Counted from the first letter of the stretch, positions 2,159-8,031 are shown. The stretch is DNA of 64,000 nucleotides from Thermococcus sp. JdF3 (GCF_012027495.1 NZ_SNUK01000001.1:248001-312000), one strand, 5' to 3'. Notes: generated by a model from the sequence alone, not told the origin. Numbers and translations: made by a program.

Positions 2159-3160
2159 TCAGTGGGCCTCCTTCCCTTCCCCTGGCAGGGGCTTCCTGTA
2201 CTCGTAGATTATATCGCCATCTATGATTGCGTAAACGTCCTGGTTTTCCATGCGGTAGTGCACTATGGGCTTGTCCACGAGGTCGAACACCCGCTCTAAG
2301 TCTTTCACAGAGTCGAGATCCACCGGGTCAACGCTCCCCACTTCGCTCGGTTTGCCCTCAACTATAAACTTCCGGAGGTTCTTCAGCTCGTCCGGCTTCC
2401 GTTCCCATTTTGTGTATGCGAACCCTATGGGGGGGATGAGAAAGAGGGCCGCCATCAGGGGAAAGGTACTCCTGGCCGATGAGACAGGAACCTCTCTTCC
2501 AGCGAAGTTAACGGTGTTGGTCGTTGTGTTTACGTACCGGACGACCTTTTTGTTTTCCTTTTCGACCCCATCGAGCTTTATCAGTCCCGATACGTCCCGC
2601 ACTACCTGGATTTTTTGCGTGAACTTTGTTCCGTCATCATTTTCCACTCTGACCGTGAGGTACACATCAACTTGAGCGCGGTGGAGTCCAGTTCCCTCCC
2701 GTACTACCATGAGATCCTCCTCGATTCTGCTCATGTTTATGAGTACCGGCACCGAGAATCTCCCGGTGAAGCTGCCTTTTTCGAGAGTTTCCGTTGTGTT
2801 CAGCAGGTTTATCCTGTTTTTGCCGGAGGTAACGTAGTACTCCCTGCTCATGGTCACGCTGTATATTCCTTTCTTTTCTGGCATTACCGCGTACGTGTAC
2901 CTGCCGGCTATCGCGGAAGTTATCTCTGCGGGATAGTACTCCAAGCTGGTTCCGTCTTGATACACGGTTTCATTCGTAAAGAATCCCAAATGGGAGAGCC
3001 ATCCCTTCTCGGAGTAGAGGGTTTCGTAAGTTGCCTCGGTAGTGGTTGGGTCCGTTGAATACGCCATTACGCTGTACACCCCAAACACTCCCGCCAGCAT
3101 GAGAGAAACCGCGATGGCACCGAGTATGACTTTTCCCCTTTCAATCTTTTTCATATTCAT
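2159..3160 (-). CDS. DUF5305-family membrane-anchored protein of the filament locus
   Basis: A 333-residue protein with an N-terminal membrane segment (about residues 12-33), a large outer domain and a second membrane segment at about residues 232-248 (FPLMAALFLIPPIGFAY), followed by a cytoplasmic tail of some 80 residues. The outer part has several NxT/NxS sites. It resembles the archaeal DUF5305 family, whose members sit beside DUF1102 genes and signal peptidases; the molecular role is not known. It is the last gene of the minus-strand locus, seven bases after the Cys/His-rich DUF1102-like gene. GAGGGGTGA precedes the ATG. An assembly or anchoring role is inference from context. Confidence 0.75.
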   Translation of the reverse strand: MNMKKIERGKVILGAIAVSLMLAGVFGVYSVMAYSTDPTTTEATYETLYSEKGWLSHLGFFTNETVYQDGTSLEYYPAEITSAIAGRYTYAVMPEKKGIYSVTMSREYYVTSGKNRINLLNTTETLEKGSFTGRFSVPVLINMSRIEEDLMVVREGTGLHRAQVDVYLTVRVENDDGTKFTQKIQVVRDVSGLIKLDGVEKENKKVVRYVNTTTNTVNFAGREVPVSSARSTFPLMAALFLIPPIGFAYTKWERKPDELKNLRKFIVEGKPSEVGSVDPVDLDSVKDLERVFDLVDKPIVHYRMENQDVYAIIDGDIIYEYRKPLPGEGKEAH

Positions 3161-3166
3161 AATCCT

Positions 3167-4159
3167 TCACCCCTCCTCAAAGGCCTCGACGGTTATCCCG
3201 TTGCTTCTTTCGATGCAGGTCGGGCAATGGGAGTTGTGATGGTTGCAACCGTCGTGGTGATGGCATCCGCAGGATTCCCATTCCCTCCAGTCATGGTTCT
3301 CGCAGCAGTCCCCAGTGGCCGGCATCTCCATGAGACATGCCCCGTAGTTCAGGGTGTACTCTCCCGGTTCTATCGTCGAGTAGAAGTATCCCGTGCAAGG
3401 GGAGCACAGCATCAGGTTGCTCACGTGTATCCTCATAGTCACGGTTTCTCCCCTCGTCACGTTGACCGCCCATAGAATCACCCCGGTGGCTCTGTGGTGT
3501 GTCCAGTCGTATAACTGTCCATCGGAGACCTCGACCTCATCTATGCTGAAGAACGCCGGGTTTACAAAGTCGAATATTAGGAACTCGCCATCTTCACCGT
3601 TGTTTCTGAAACTGAGCTCCATGACCCACTCCTGGGGAGTGTTCACTGGAAAGCTCTCATTGCCGCTTATGAGTCGCTTTGTGAGGATAAACTCCCTGGA
3701 CGAGATATGTACCAGTATTGAACACGCCTCGATCCTGGCACTTCCCCCATCCCACTCCGCATAGATAGTCAGAGGAATCTCATAGGTTCCCTCTTCCGCG
3801 TATTCATCGCTCTCAATTCTGGCCTCGAAATCCGCGGACTCTCCGGGTTCCAGGCTTCTAATACTCCCGTTTACCTCTCCCGAAATCCCCTCCGGGAGTT
3901 CCGAGAAATCTGCCTCGATATGGACGTTTATCTCTCTGTCCATTAGGTTCTGGGCAGTCACCGCGATGAACTCGACGCCCTCCCCTGCCTCAAGGTCCAC
4001 CTGGCTGCCTAAACAGCGATATGCCACGTAGGAATTCTCTCCACTGACGATTCCAACCGTTGTTGGTCTTTCGGCGATGTACGCTCTGAAATTTCCGCTT
4101 GAGCCCACTATGAGCAGAGCCCCCAATAAAAAGGTGACCAGAAGTAACAACGTCCTCAT
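3167..4159 (-). CDS. Exported DUF1102-like protein with Cys/His-rich tail
   Basis: A 330-residue exported protein. After a signal peptide (residues 1-22) the mature part begins with GNFRAYIAERPTTVGIV, a variant of the ANFRxYxADR start of the two smaller DUF1102 proteins upstream, so it is a larger paralogue. The body is beta-rich with two stretches like those of CARDF/NEW3 adhesion domains (residues 45-150). The last 46 residues are extraordinary: seven Cys and seven His fall within 31 residues (285-315), including CC, CGCHHH and CPTC. This looks like a metal-binding or disulfide-rich cap. The start lies one codon after the signal peptidase stop. Confidence 0.7.
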   Translation of the reverse strand: MRTLLLLVTFLLGALLIVGSSGNFRAYIAERPTTVGIVSGENSYVAYRCLGSQVDLEAGEGVEFIAVTAQNLMDREINVHIEADFSELPEGISGEVNGSIRSLEPGESADFEARIESDEYAEEGTYEIPLTIYAEWDGGSARIEACSILVHISSREFILTKRLISGNESFPVNTPQEWVMELSFRNNGEDGEFLIFDFVNPAFFSIDEVEVSDGQLYDWTHHRATGVILWAVNVTRGETVTMRIHVSNLMLCSPCTGYFYSTIEPGEYTLNYGACLMEMPATGDCCENHDWREWESCGCHHHDGCNHHNSHCPTCIERSNGITVEAFEEG

Positions 4160-4161
4160 GC

Positions 4162-5226
4162 TTAACCATCTCCCATTACTTTGCTTAGAAGGCTTCTACG
4201 CCTAGTTCTGATTCTAATGACGTCCTCGTTCCCTACGTTTGCAAGGTAGTAGAAAACCAGGAGTATTCCGGTTATTTCGAGCGCGTACGCCGCTAATGGA
4301 AGGTACTGACTGACGCGATAGAGTCTCCCGACGAGCCATCCGGGGAGGATTGCCGGGTACGAATACACTGCTATTTCCTCGCGGTACACCCTTGTGTCGG
4401 TAGGCACTGAGACACTGAGTTTAATCTCGTGGAGGGAATTCCCTTGGAGCCTGAACGAGTCTTCGTTCAACAGAACCACGTTGTCGCCCTTCGGGACTAT
4501 GAAGTAATGGAACGGATAGAGTGCCTTGTTCTCCACGCTCAGATTCCTCTCAAATGTGCTCCCCGGGAGGTACCATCCCTCCCTTTGACCCCCCGCAAGG
4601 GTTGAGGAGTACGTAAATGCCAGGGTACCCCACGACGCGACAGTCACGAACATGAAACCCATCACTATCAGGACGGATACCATTGCGTAGAGGGTTTTCA
4701 TTTTGATTTTAACGACTCTCTTTTTCTTTCCCCCCCGCTTCTTTTCTCCCCCCTTGAACGTTAGGAAGGAGCCGAGAATTATTAGCACCACAACTACGTA
4801 GACGTTCGTCATTCTTTTTCTGGCGGATTCTATAAAACTGCCACCGCCCCTGATTACCAGAGGAGTCCCCCTGACCGTGATGACCTTCCCAACGATGTCC
4901 CCTTTTTCAACGGCCGGGTATATGTCATCCTGCTGATCCGTGGCAACGTTGTGGTCACCCTTGGTTATGTATCCCTCGTCAGTGACGGCAAACACCCTGT
5001 GAACGGTCCAACCGTCCCTTCTGTTGAACACGATTATATCGCCAACATCGGCGGTTTTTGAGAGGGGGTTGATGAAGAAGAGGTCGCCCCGGTTTATCGT
5101 TGGGGTCATGCTCTCGGAGTATGCGTAGGATACAAAAACCGGCCTGTTCAAGAAAAAGCCAACTATGGAACCGATGAGAAAGGTTAAGATGATAACGGTC
5201 AGCGTGAGTTCTATTAGCCTCTTCAT
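4162..5226 (-). CDS. SipW-like signal peptidase I with C-terminal beta domain
   Basis: A 354-residue membrane protease of the ER/SipW type of signal peptidase I. Residues 7-28 form the first membrane helix. The catalytic Ser is in SESMTPTINRGD (about residue 39), the His in TVHRVFAV and the acidic residue in YITKGDHN; a His in place of the bacterial Lys is usual for archaea. Unlike plain archaeal SPase I, it carries about 220 extra residues: a helix near 137-157, a very basic linker, another helix, a beta-rich outer domain and a last helix near 306-335. Its place between DUF1102 genes suggests that it processes those proteins, as SipW does for TasA. Confidence 0.85.
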   Translation of the reverse strand: MKRLIELTLTVIILTFLIGSIVGFFLNRPVFVSYAYSESMTPTINRGDLFFINPLSKTADVGDIIVFNRRDGWTVHRVFAVTDEGYITKGDHNVATDQQDDIYPAVEKGDIVGKVITVRGTPLVIRGGGSFIESARKRMTNVYVVVVLIILGSFLTFKGGEKKRGGKKKRVVKIKMKTLYAMVSVLIVMGFMFVTVASWGTLAFTYSSTLAGGQREGWYLPGSTFERNLSVENKALYPFHYFIVPKGDNVVLLNEDSFRLQGNSLHEIKLSVSVPTDTRVYREEIAVYSYPAILPGWLVGRLYRVSQYLPLAAYALEITGILLVFYYLANVGNEDVIRIRTRRRSLLSKVMGDG

Positions 5227-5240
5227 ACTAACACCCTCTA

Positions 5241-5260
5241 AACAAAAGGGGGGAAACCCC
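5241..5260 (-). terminator. Hairpin between second DUF1102 gene and signal peptidase gene
   Basis: Read on the minus strand, GGGG-TTT-CCCC forms a short GC hairpin followed by CCTTTTGTTT. It sits just after the stop of the 178-residue subunit gene and before the peptidase gene. It could act as a partial terminator or 3' stabiliser so that the two small subunits are made in excess over peptidase and anchor. Only the hairpin itself is seen; the role is inferred. Confidence 0.45.
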
Positions 5261-5271
5261 AGAGAAGGAAA

Positions 5272-5808
5272 TCACTGCTGGCATGCTCCAGCCACGGCCT
5301 CTATACTCATCTGGAACTGGTACTGGCCGAGGGTTGAGTTGGTGTTGTCGAATATCATCCCTATCGGGACTGGGTCTCCGTGCTCGACGGTAAAGTGGAT
5401 GTTGTTGTCGGGCCCAGCTATGGGTGCGTCGTAGGTTCCGGCAAAGATGAGCACGTCGTCGTGCTGGGTCTTTATGGTGACGCATATCGGGTAGCTCGTT
5501 TCGTTGTTCTCCCAGAGCTCGTTGCTTACGTGGAACATCTCCTCAAAGACGTACGTGGTGTTGGGGCTCATTCCTGTACCGCCGCCTTGCGGGTAGTTCG
5601 GGTTGTACTGGCTTATGTCCACGTAGAGCTTTCCAGCGTCGTAGGTAACGTAGGGCTGGAGTGCGGTCAAATCAATCAGCTCGTTGTCGTCAGAGACGAC
5701 ATCGAACGAAGCAGTCCTGTCGGCCGAGTAGTAACGGAAGTTTGCCCCGGCGCCGACGGCCAGGAGCATTCCGATCATCAATACAGCCAATCCAAATAGT
5801 TTGTTCAT
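5272..5808 (-). CDS. DUF1102 exported subunit 2, probable filament or matrix protein
   Basis: A 178-residue secreted protein. The signal peptide ends near AVGAGA and the mature chain starts NFRYYSADRTASFDVVSDDN, nearly the same as its upstream neighbour (SDDNELIDLT is shared exactly). The rest is beta-rich, threonine and asparagine rich, and ends in a Cys pair (AGACQQ plus YPICVT) that may form a disulfide. Archaeal DUF1102 proteins resemble the TasA/camelysin class that polymerises by donor-strand exchange. GGAGGCGTGAAAG precedes the ATG. It lies 14 bases after the first subunit gene, so the two are co-transcribed. Confidence 0.8.
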   Translation of the reverse strand: MNKLFGLAVLMIGMLLAVGAGANFRYYSADRTASFDVVSDDNELIDLTALQPYVTYDAGKLYVDISQYNPNYPQGGGTGMSPNTTYVFEEMFHVSNELWENNETSYPICVTIKTQHDDVLIFAGTYDAPIAGPDNNIHFTVEHGDPVPIGMIFDNTNSTLGQYQFQMSIEAVAGACQQ

Positions 5809-5822
5809 CTTTCACGCCTCCC

Positions 5823-6416
5823 TCACTGACCGCACTTTCCAACGAGCTCCGCCGGCTCGGTGCCAAGCCTGTAGGCCTGGATGTGTATCGTGCTGCTCTC
5901 TGTGTCACCTGGGGCTGAGTTGCCCACCGTGAAGTCCATGCCGACCTTTACGGCATCCCCCGAGCCTACAACGAAGCAGACGTCGTTCTTTGCCATGTCG
6001 CTGGCGTAGACAATTGCTCCAGTCTGGGCGTCATGGATGTCGTGGTCTGCGCCGTAGAACTGTATCGCCGTGTTGGCGTTGGTTATCCTGACGACTATCG
6101 TCATGTTGTCCTCCCAGAGGTCGTTGCTTACCTCAAAGACCTCGTCGAAGTTGTACTCCGAGTTCGGGCTGAGGCCCTGGCCGTAGCCGGGGTAGTTCGG
6201 GTTGTCCGGGCTGATGTCAACGACGAGAACGCCACCGTCGTTTATGTAAGCGTAGGGCTGGATGGGCGTCAGGTCAATGAGTTCATTATCATCGCTAACG
6301 ATGTCCCAATGGACACTCCTGTCAGCGTTGTAGTCCCTGAAGTTGGCGCCAGCTCCCAGTACGAGACCGAAGGCCACCATCAGGCCAAAAATTCCAAGGG
6401 CAATATTCTTTCTCAA
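5823..6416 (-). CDS. DUF1102 exported subunit 1, probable filament or matrix protein
   Basis: A 197-residue secreted protein, first gene of the operon. It has a classic signal peptide (residues 1-24, ending VLGAGA), then NFRDYNADRSVHWDIVSDDN, followed by a beta-rich body with ISPDNPNYPGYGQGLSPNS, a turn that recurs in the downstream paralogue. Two Cys residues (NDVCF, VGKCGQ) may pair. The start is TTG, chosen because AGGAGGCG lies at the right distance and no better codon exists. The leader between the likely transcription start and this TTG is about 150 bases, unusually long for a thermococcal gene. DUF1102 is a family of unknown function; the filament role is inferred from TasA/SipW-like context. 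Confidence 0.82.
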   Translation of the reverse strand: MRKNIALGIFGLMVAFGLVLGAGANFRDYNADRSVHWDIVSDDNELIDLTPIQPYAYINDGGVLVVDISPDNPNYPGYGQGLSPNSEYNFDEVFEVSNDLWEDNMTIVVRITNANTAIQFYGADHDIHDAQTGAIVYASDMAKNDVCFVVGSGDAVKVGMDFTVGNSAPGDTESSTIHIQAYRLGTEPAELVGKCGQ

Positions 6417-6583
6417 TTTTTTCGCCTCCTAATATGGAGGCACTGTGGAACAGCAGCGAACAGTTATGAGCATTATGGTCTCACACCACGAACACTCAAC
6501 ACACTGTTTACTGGAACTCAACGCAGTGCCCCTTGCTGGCAACCATACATGCGGTTGCTCATTCACATCTTTGGAACGTTGGT

Positions 6584-6631
6584 GTATATAGTAAATTCCG
6601 AATTACTGGCGGGTAATGCATCATTACCCGC
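6584..6631 (-). promoter_or_regulatory. Promoter of the filament operon with 23-base palindrome
   Basis: On the minus strand a TATA element (TATATAC, 6584-6590) would start transcription near 6560-6568. About 20 bases upstream of it lies a perfect inverted repeat: GCGGGTAATG at 6609-6618, three bases, then CATTACCCGC at 6622-6631. Its place upstream of TATA suggests an activator site. The neighbouring winged-helix genes are natural candidates to bind it. Confidence 0.65.
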
Positions 6632-6681
6632 GTTAAAGCCATATTACAATTAGAACCGGGACAGTTTTAAGCCCCGACTGG

Positions 6682-7116
6682 CTAAATCAGCCTGCTTATC
6701 TTCCTGTGATGCACCACGCTAATGGCCAGGTACACGATGGCCGCAAGGAGCAGGGGCAGGTTTTTCAGATACCACCCTGCGGCTATGAATGTCAGCGAGG
6801 TACCCATGTAGAAGGCACTCCAGCTGATGTCGTGTTTGTTCACCACTTCCATGTAAACGGTAACATCGTCGGGTATTTTCAGGAGCGTAACGACGCCGTG
6901 ATTGAACGCTATAACCCCCTCCCTCTCCAGTTTCGGGATGTGGGTCTGCACCAGGCTGACGTACACGCTTTTCCTGTGCCTTCTATCGGTGTCACCCTCT
7001 TTTTCGGCTATATATCCGACTATGTCCCGCAGTTCCGCATGACCGTCCCTCTCCTGCAGGAACTCTATCATGAGCATCCGTCTGTCGTTCCCGAGTATTG
7101 CAGTCGTTGCCCCCAT
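6682..7116 (-). CDS. Membrane-anchored winged-helix regulator (DUF7344-like)
   Basis: A 144-residue protein. Residues 6-80 form a winged helix of the archaeal DUF7344 kind (LGNDRRMLMIEFLQERDG, then AELRDIVGYIAEKEGD and HIPKLEREGVI). Residues 99-117 and 119-136 are two membrane helices, so the DNA-binding domain should face the cytoplasm at the membrane, like ToxR-type one-component regulators. The start at 7116 is chosen because GGTGATAGC precedes that ATG; the longer frame would overlap the upstream regulator gene, whose TGA is part of this ribosome-binding region. Together with the upstream gene it forms a two-gene unit facing the filament operon. Confidence 0.75.
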   Translation of the reverse strand: MGATTAILGNDRRMLMIEFLQERDGHAELRDIVGYIAEKEGDTDRRHRKSVYVSLVQTHIPKLEREGVIAFNHGVVTLLKIPDDVTVYMEVVNKHDISWSAFYMGTSLTFIAAGWYLKNLPLLLAAIVYLAISVVHHRKISRLI

Positions 7117-7120
7117 GCTA

Positions 7121-7336
7121 TCACCGTAACCTGTAGTGCTTGCGTTTATTCCCATTCGTGTAGAATGCTTCAACCTTTTTTTGCTCAACCATTTTCCTCA
7201 GGGTTCTCTCCACCTTCTGCCGCGTGCAATCAAGTCCCATCTCGTTGAGGAACCTGGTTATGAACGCTACGCTTAGTGAACCGTGAACCTTGAGCAGGTT
7301 GGTGATTTCACTCTCCAAGCTGATGGTGCTGTTCAT
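7121..7336 (-). CDS. Small winged-helix DNA-binding protein
   Basis: A 71-residue soluble protein that is all winged helix: an N-terminal helix (ISLESEITNLLKVHG), a helix-turn-helix (SVAFITRFLNEMGLD then RQKVERTLRKMVEQ) and a basic wing (KVEAFYTNGNKRKHYRLR). No membrane segment. GGAGGTGAAGGC lies directly ahead of the ATG. It is the first gene of the regulator pair and its stop codon overlaps the ribosome-binding site of the membrane-anchored regulator. It may serve as a partner subunit or independent regulator of the filament operon. No named family is claimed. Confidence 0.7.
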   Translation of the reverse strand: MNSTISLESEITNLLKVHGSLSVAFITRFLNEMGLDCTRQKVERTLRKMVEQKKVEAFYTNGNKRKHYRLR

Positions 7337-7741
7337 GCCTTCACCTCCATGTTAGGCAATCGGTGTGTAACATCACTTTAAAAGTGGGATGACGTTCTAT
7401 TTAAGGGTTCCTGAAAAGTTCGATTTTTGGATTTTCGGTAGTTCGATGGCTTATTCAGTTGATGTAGGCCCTAGAAGCAGATAAAACTGGCTTCTGTCTC
7501 CGTTCCCCCGACTTTCGAATGCCGTTTCTGCACGATTTTTTGGATATTTTACAACACTTTAGTTAATCTGCAGCAGAATATGAGCGATTTTTCTGCAATC
7601 TCGTGGAATCCCCTGATATTTAAAAAGGGACGCACACTCTAACAATGACATACAATACGCATTGGGGTGTAATTTGAAGTTCGAAACCAGAACCTGGGAT
7701 AGGGGAGAAAGCGGGGTTCGAATATCTGGAGCCCAGTTGAA
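7337..7741. other. Intergenic stretch between regulator pair and tRNA-Gln
   Basis: About 400 AT-rich bases without a convincing gene. The left part holds the promoter for the winged-helix pair (CTTAAATAG near 7397-7405 and TTTTAAAG near 7377 on the minus strand are TATA candidates). A rightward TATA-like ATTTAAAAAGG lies at 7618-7628 and would yield a transcript running toward the antisense of the tRNA. At 7712-7723 stands an inverted copy of the tRNA T-arm (see the repeat entry). Open frames here largely read through tRNA sequence and were not called. Confidence 0.5.
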
Positions 7742-7769
7742 TGGTAGCCCCGCGGGGATTCGAACCCCG
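7712..7769. repeat. Inverted 12-base repeat involving the tRNA-Gln T-arm
   Basis: CGGGGTTCGAAT at 7712-7723 is the exact reverse complement of ATTCGAACCCCG at 7758-7769, which is the T-arm of the tRNA-Gln gene. The outer copy lies 18 bases beyond the CCA end. Archaeal integrative elements often target tRNA 3' halves, and a scar of that sort would leave a tRNA fragment nearby, but such a fragment would normally be in direct orientation. Confidence 0.5.
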
Positions 7770-7817
7770 GTCAAGGGATCCAGAGTCCCCTATGCTTGGC
7801 CGCTACACCACGGGGCT
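7742..7817 (-). tRNA. tRNA-Gln (anticodon CUG)
   Basis: A full cloverleaf reads on the minus strand: acceptor AGCCCCG pairs with CGGGGCT, D-arm, anticodon stem GGGGA/TCCCT with loop CTCTGGA giving anticodon CTG, and the T-arm with GGTTCGAATCC. The discriminator is A and CCA is encoded (7744-7742). There is no intron. CUG decodes the glutamine codon CAG. As in other archaea the tRNA is probably charged through Glu-tRNA(Gln) amidation, which is general knowledge, not seen here. Confidence 0.95.
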
Positions 7818-7843
7818 GCACCCGTTGATAGGTTCAGGGATGG

Positions 7844-7855
7844 ATTTATAAATTT
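7844..7855 (-). promoter_or_regulatory. TATA box of tRNA-Gln
   Basis: On the minus strand AAAATTTATAAATCC provides a strong TATA element about 27-35 bases ahead of the tRNA 5' end at 7817, the usual archaeal spacing. Confidence 0.7.
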
Positions 7856-8031
7856 TATCCTTCCCCGGACTCCGTCGCAGGGCCTATAATCCTCCTCACC
7901 CAAAGTAGTAACGGCCCCTTCGGGTAATTTCACCGACAAGATGCGGCGGACCCATGTCGTTGAAGACTGGAACTGGAAAACAGACTTTTCCCTTCTTCCG
8001 GGGGAGGGAGTCCGCACTGTCCCGAAAACTA

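Follow-up and report, generated by a model that had tools for sequence, protein, structure and literature searches.

Gene content and layout of the locus

The window, i.e., the entire 64,000-nucleotide stretch of DNA that we analyzed, bears a block of seven genes running in one direction on the minus strand (7336-2159), as established from ORF calls and Pfam searches; this agrees with the earlier note, which had described such a same-strand locus with two winged-helix genes at its upstream end. The first of these, WH1 (7121-7336), is an ORF for a small winged-helix-like putative regulator of 71 aa that matches no Pfam family above the cut-off. The second, WH2 (6682-7116), codes for a putative winged-helix regulator of the DUF7344 family (PF24035, E 1.5e-17) with one or more C-terminal hydrophobic segments, as gauged from its hydropathy; its start, previously placed at 7188, is instead the ATG at 7116, which matches the starts of its orthologs. 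Downstream of WH2, and likewise on the minus strand, come an operator-like element (6603-6631), the TATA box of the promoter of the gene S1 (6585-6590), recognized by its sequence, and a structured 5' leader (6417-6584). These are followed by two genes for DUF1102 proteins, namely S1 (5823-6416; PF06510, E 4e-56), a putative filament subunit, and S2 (5272-5808; PF06510, E 3e-56), a second such subunit. The remaining three genes of the block, all on the same strand, code for an S26 signal peptidase, SIP (4162-5226), a third exported protein with Ig-like domains, LARGE (3167-4159), and a DUF5305 membrane protein (2159-3160; PF17231, E 6e-11), with the gene for an inorganic pyrophosphatase (1513-2049) lying after the last of these. 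In the genome to which the window belongs, DUF1102 is found nowhere outside the locus, and the single copies of DUF5305 and DUF7344 are both situated at it. A tRNA-Gln (CTG) gene on the minus strand just upstream of the locus (7742-7817) is a candidate landmark at which recombination or integration might occur.

The gene order WH1-WH2-S1-S2-(S3)-SIP-LARGE-DUF5305-pyrophosphatase, wherein S3 stands for a third DUF1102 protein considered below, is retained in all 20 other Thermococcus-group genomes compared; an ortholog of WH1 was found in 19 of them and not detected in one, and S2 adjoins S1 in every genome of this set. More broadly, DUF1102 is present in 36 of the 37 genus-group genomes, the exception being only 73% complete. 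By scanning contigs, we further recovered the operon from MAGs of Thermococcus as well as those of Archaeoglobus, Geoglobus and Ferroglobus, with the identity of S1 reaching 60%; most of the contigs examined from the Archaeoglobi show the gene order without WH1. That the linkage persists in two lineages so far apart strongly indicates that these genes function together. In support of the earlier proposal, the dedicated peptidase, the common mature N-terminal motif and the linked regulators are all conserved.

The DUF1102 subunits, their tail and their fold

S1 and S2 each score about 190 bits against PF06510, far beyond the cut-off of 22.2. S1 has a type I signal peptide, and its mature form is predicted to begin with NFRDYNADR; the corresponding N-terminus of S2 is NFRYYSADR. 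The two mature N-termini had been called near-identical; with 22 of 31 positions in agreement, they are similar at best. The AlphaFold model of mature S1, based on 65 aligned sequences, is a beta-sandwich (pLDDT 82.7), wherein residues 1-19 have a pLDDT below 50 and are thus predicted to form a disordered tail. In conservation, this tail equals the start of the core and exceeds the C-terminal two thirds of the protein (2.9 versus 2.2 bits per column), and the invariant residues are F2, R9, D18, D19 and E21. Because it is conserved yet without a place in the monomer, the tail resembles a donor strand. In TasA, whose mature form spans residues 28-261, the donor strand starts from residue 28 and relies on F29 and I32, i.e., the mature positions 2 and 5; S1 and S2 carry F2 and Y5 at these very positions.

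A search with the S1 model against 350,542 PDB chains returned AbpA of Pyrobaculum, an archaeal bundling pilin, as the best match (7ueg; E 7e-5, prob 1.00, TM 0.45), followed by the subunit of an archaeal tube (9bab; E 1e-3; 2025) and then by the type 1 pilins FimA and FimG. While the TM-score of the alignment with AbpA is modest and beta-sandwiches are common, this comparison of folds, set in advance as a test, failed to refute the TasA/AbpA-like logic first suggested for the locus. Chains of TasA were absent among the 50 best fold matches in the PDB. At the sequence level, Peptidase_M73, the TasA/camelysin family, was matched by none of the 65 members at E-values up to 10, and a profile of the 65 sequences run against the PDB with hmmsearch did not recover 7ueg. 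Likewise, phmmer and hmmsearch runs against the PDB with S1, S2, LARGE and two alignments yielded nothing credible; we regarded one weak match, to the phage tail protein 9lwa (E 0.002), as due to chance.

Several genomes carry an alternative version of the locus (type B, described below), which usually codes for a third DUF1102 protein, S3 (L042:7512-8021 and its equivalents), with a signal-like N-terminus but without the NFRxY tail. Such a protein could be an acceptor-only end subunit.

LARGE, the signal peptidase and the DUF5305 protein

All three exported proteins had been assigned to DUF1102. This holds for S1 and S2; LARGE, on the other hand, has no PF06510 match in Pfam and shares with them no more than a signal peptide and the motif at the mature N-terminus, which in its case is NFRAYIAER. 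The AlphaFold model (pLDDT 82.1) and fold searches predict that the motif is borne on two Ig-like domains, whose matches are Ig-like adhesion domains of broad resemblance. The F and R of the motif are invariant in all 24 rows of the LARGE alignment, and the general form NFRxYxxxR is common to mature S1, S2 and LARGE from both Thermococcus and the Archaeoglobi. LARGE differs in length between types, from about 310 aa to about 460 aa. A C-terminal insert in the copy from the window (3200-3310) is the Cys/His-rich CCENHDWREWESCGCHHHDGCNHHNSHCPTC, which looks metal-binding; Cys/His-rich stretches are also seen in some other LARGE proteins, at no single conserved place.

With the NCBIfam model for archaeal signal peptidase I (TIGR02228), SIP scores 63.7 bits against a cut-off of 51.85; with that for Bacillus SipW, the type named in the earlier note, it reaches just 27.6 bits, far below the cut-off of 190. 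The gene for this ER-type S26 peptidase is linked to those of its putative substrates in all the genomes compared. The motifs SES-M, VHR and KGDxN, which supply the Ser, His and Asp, are conserved. The genome of the window codes for three S26 peptidases of this kind, SIP being one of them. What the earlier note called an extra beta domain is a conserved, extracellular-type C-terminal stretch of SIP placed between predicted TM helices, with additional TM segments. The DUF5305 protein, for its part, scores 42.7 bits against PF17231 (cut-off 29).

We favor the reading that these proteins assemble into a filament by donor-strand complementation. It is unlikely that they are instead monomeric or S-layer-associated Ig-like surface proteins served by a dedicated peptidase, with no polymer being formed. 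The TM-score of S1 to AbpA is just 0.45, and LARGE does broadly resemble Ig-like adhesion domains, both of which would suit surface proteins of this kind; nevertheless, the best fold match of S1 is a pilin, a disordered and highly conserved N-terminal tail is carried by three proteins of different fold, and the peptidase and the paired subunits are conserved as a unit. Slightly less probable still is that the subunits build cell-linking tubes comparable to the Pyrodictium cannulae rather than thin fibers: the AbpA fiber ranks ahead of the Hyper2 tube subunit (9bab), the second-best fold match at E 1e-3; like fiber systems, the operon includes a peptidase as well as a donor protein similar to TapA; and the cannula proteins were reported as being without sequence relatives, even if their subunits (CanA, B and C) likewise constitute sets of related proteins.

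Operator, promoter and leader RNA

The operator-like element upstream of S1 comprises the palindrome GCGGGTAATGATGCATTACCCGC and a further GTAA half-site. Across genomes, it takes the form GTAAY-N5-RTTAC-N6-GTAA-N11-TATATA, which is strict in 18 of 20 genomes and present as a variant in the other 2; none of 1000 mononucleotide shuffles contained the pattern. The strict palindrome has one match in the window where 0 are expected. A second palindrome match, in another part of the genome (C4:49541), lies within a cobalt-transporter-like gene and was judged to be chance. In one genome (G034, locus L036), about 450 extra bases separate the regulator genes from the operator, which is itself intact. 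The element is situated directly upstream of the TATA box, and hence on the constant side of the exchange boundary described below; this position, taken with the linkage of the genes, makes WH1 and WH2 the likely binders of the GTAAT/ATTAC operator.

S1 starts with a TTG codon, ahead of which lies a clear Shine-Dalgarno sequence, GGAGGCG. A GCCTCC-loop-GGAGGC hairpin (6424-6441), which is present in all 18 aligned leaders with a variable loop, would mask this sequence. It is met by a competing long-range helix, formed by 6524-6532 with 6437-6445, in which the GCCTC of the hairpin would pair with an upstream GGGGCAC. Over the 18 leaders, 97% of cells in this helix are paired as against 41-59% in slid controls, and compensatory changes are seen at 2 pairs, probably reflecting two independent events. 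It is plausible that the type A leader acts as a two-state RNA switch, as predicted from these pairings. Type A leaders measure 126-180 nt, and those of type B are different and short (about 70-96 nt). An Rfam search of the stretch matched a tRNA alone, with the leader having no match.

A cassette exchanged behind a constant promoter

The closest of the 20 genomes by rpoB is G024 (96.1%; sister to that of the window with support 96/97). The two align at the DNA level with 94.6% identity over 10.5 kb, from 8 kb to the left of the window up to position 2287, and again with 92.9% identity over 6585-7912 (blastn); the intervening 2288-6584 is either unalignable or below 77% identity in patches. 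The same breaks at 2287 and 6585 recur in the comparisons with G001 and G031, and lie at 2305 and 6585 in that with G012. We considered whether the high identity of the left flank might simply stem from gene conservation, and rejected this as the right flank and rpoB give equal relatedness. Breakpoints and trees together delimit an exchanged cassette on the minus strand (2288-6584), which is of type A in the window. Its right edge coincides with the end of the TATA box, which thus borders the constant region, and its left edge falls within the cytoplasmic end of DUF5305; comparison of the identity of the tail and the body of this protein indicates that its extracellular domain exchanges with the cassette, whereas its cytoplasmic end is more constant. 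With this boundary at the TATA box, the regulators, operator and promoter stay constant while the filament genes are swapped.

The proteins tell a comparable story: those from the window and from G024, which carries type B, are 47% identical for S1, 47% for S2, 30% for LARGE and 32% for DUF5305, as against 99% for WH1 and 100% for the pyrophosphatase. Conversely, S1 of the window is 93% identical to that of G035, though their WH1 proteins are only 52% and their rpoB 85.5% identical. Type A has S1 and S2, and type B usually has S1, S2 and S3. The S1+S2 tree fully separates the two types (100/100) and rejects the species clade of six genomes (p 3e-35). The latter is recovered with 100/100 support in both the rpoB and the rpoB+aEF-2 trees. 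Species relatedness was taken from rpoB alone and from this clade; in the rpoB+aEF-2 tree, a long branch of G033 and G035 is artefactual, probably due to a wrong-strand reading of aEF-2, and was not relied upon. The rpoB tree rejects a single clade of type A (p 5e-31) and calls for at least four changes between A and B. Both types have relatives among the Archaeoglobi in the S1 tree, which rejects the grouping of all Thermococcus sequences into one clade (p 6e-5), a result that deserves moderate trust given the long branches.

As judged from these alignments and trees, the transcribed block comes in two ancient types that have been exchanged between near-identical flanks. That the types arose merely by vertical divergence and differential loss of duplicated loci is highly improbable: each is a well-supported clade, in keeping with an ancient split, but there is always one copy at one site, in several genomes identity breaks off abruptly at two shared positions, the type changes on the rpoB tree number at least four, and the subunits of G000 are nearest to those of the distantly related G035 and G023. 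Given an exchanged cassette, pieces inside it may also be mobile, since the length of LARGE varies across types. The exchange is a new finding, having been absent from the earlier note, as were the operator and the structured leader RNA.

Proposed mechanism and its implications

We consider it likely that the locus specifies a surface filament built by donor-strand complementation on the TasA/AbpA plan, with the filament being swapped as a cassette under constant control. This proposal has its footing in the gene content, synteny, mature motif, operator-like element and exchange, alongside a predicted fold; from these, we infer the polymerization, where the subunits are cleaved, what LARGE, S3 and DUF5305 do, the binding of the regulators, and the selective reason for the exchange. 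Briefly, we advance the following plausible sequence of events. The linked peptidase would cut the exported S1 and S2 just before the N-F-x-x-[YF]-x3-R tail, and this tail, disordered in the monomer, would then enter the beta-sandwich of the next subunit. S1 and S2 might each act as donor and acceptor of a strand, while LARGE would donate one without needing to accept any; LARGE could accordingly start or cap the fiber, or serve as an adhesin or anchor in the manner of TapA. The DUF5305 protein, bound to the membrane, might help to assemble or anchor the fiber. WH1 and WH2 would control the fixed promoter via the GTAAT/ATTAC operator. Finally, the two ancient filament types would replace each other at a single chromosomal site through recombination within the conserved flanking sequences, and each swap would alter what the cell displays to other cells, surfaces and viruses, with the control remaining unchanged.

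A more encompassing version, which we offer tentatively and rate as somewhat short of an even chance, posits a single "filament slot" in the Thermococcales. It would consist of a fixed operator, promoter and membrane-tethered regulator, behind which the block is swapped between two ancient filament types shared with the Archaeoglobi; selection by viruses or through cell-cell recognition would keep up the diversity of surface filaments, and in type A a two-state leader RNA would gate translation of the major subunit.

Among the archaea, Thermococcus is a leading model, and genetics is established for T. kodakarensis. If the proposal is true, a genus-wide TasA/AbpA-like fiber would offer a tractable host for studying how archaeal biofilm fibers are cut, started and anchored. 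Further, the block exchange behind a constant promoter predicts that close strains show different filaments under the same control, a behavior that would befit a virus receptor or a structure used in recognition.

Comparison with known systems

In the literature searched, we found nothing linking Thermococcus to TasA, DUF1102 or DUF5305, although the work on AbpA may already list Thermococcus homologs, and found no microscopy or proteomics of these Thermococcus proteins. AbpA offers the closest structural parallel: it is the best fold match and, like S1, an exported beta-sandwich subunit with a tail of the donor-strand type from a hyperthermophilic archaeon. In contrast to AbpA, with which there is no sequence-profile match, the Thermococcus locus has two to three paired subunits and adds a linked peptidase, an Ig-like donor protein and DUF5305; its filament is not known to bundle.

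The organization of the operon rather recalls TasA-SipW-TapA of Bacillus subtilis and CalY-SipW of B. cereus, which likewise combine one or more subunits, a dedicated peptidase and a minor protein with the same donor tail. Fibers of TasA are what binds the biofilms of bacteria together. The presence of two related subunits is specifically shared with B. cereus, and F at mature position 2 with a hydrophobic residue at position 5 is shared with TasA. In TapA, the Ig domain is complete in itself and the N-terminus is donated; LARGE similarly bears its donor N-terminus on a different, complete Ig-like fold. The Thermococcus system differs in being without a Peptidase_M73 match, in its archaeal-type peptidase with an added region, in its two winged-helix regulators and in its cassette exchange.

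Two other archaeal systems are more distant. The threads of Sulfolobus acidocaldarius (Saci_0406) are also donor-strand filaments with a signal of the signal peptidase I type, but their subunit is outside the 50 best fold matches, its gene neighborhood is different and the portion of the source available to us notes no dedicated peptidase. The Pyrodictium cannulae and the Hyper2 tube are represented by the second-best fold match, 9bab; however, they are tubes 25-27 nm wide, and the accessible part of their description mentions no such operon.

Among the Taf fimbrial families of NCBIfam (TafA, TafC, TafE and TafF were considered), S1 weakly matches TafA (5e-5; 23.4 of 190 bits) and TafE (7e-4; 19.4 of 155 bits), in both cases far below the curated cut-offs. 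In other lineages of the class, relatives have TafE matches at 1e-14 but only weak ones to DUF1102, which hints that the DUF1102 and Taf proteins belong to one superfamily. Two loci from these searches deserve mention in their own right. One, from another lineage of the class (G043, L126:66-1383), is a tandem Taf/DUF1102-like pair with the mature motif GAFTSVTADR and no adjoining peptidase, which links the DUF1102 and Taf fimbrial families. In the other (G045, L127:141-1442), a Taf-like N-terminal domain is apparently fused, as assessed by eye, to a long LamG-type (concanavalin-like) part, making it a possible adhesive tip protein. Against this backdrop, the best reading of the Thermococcus locus is that it works like the TasA and AbpA fibers while belonging to neither family by sequence.
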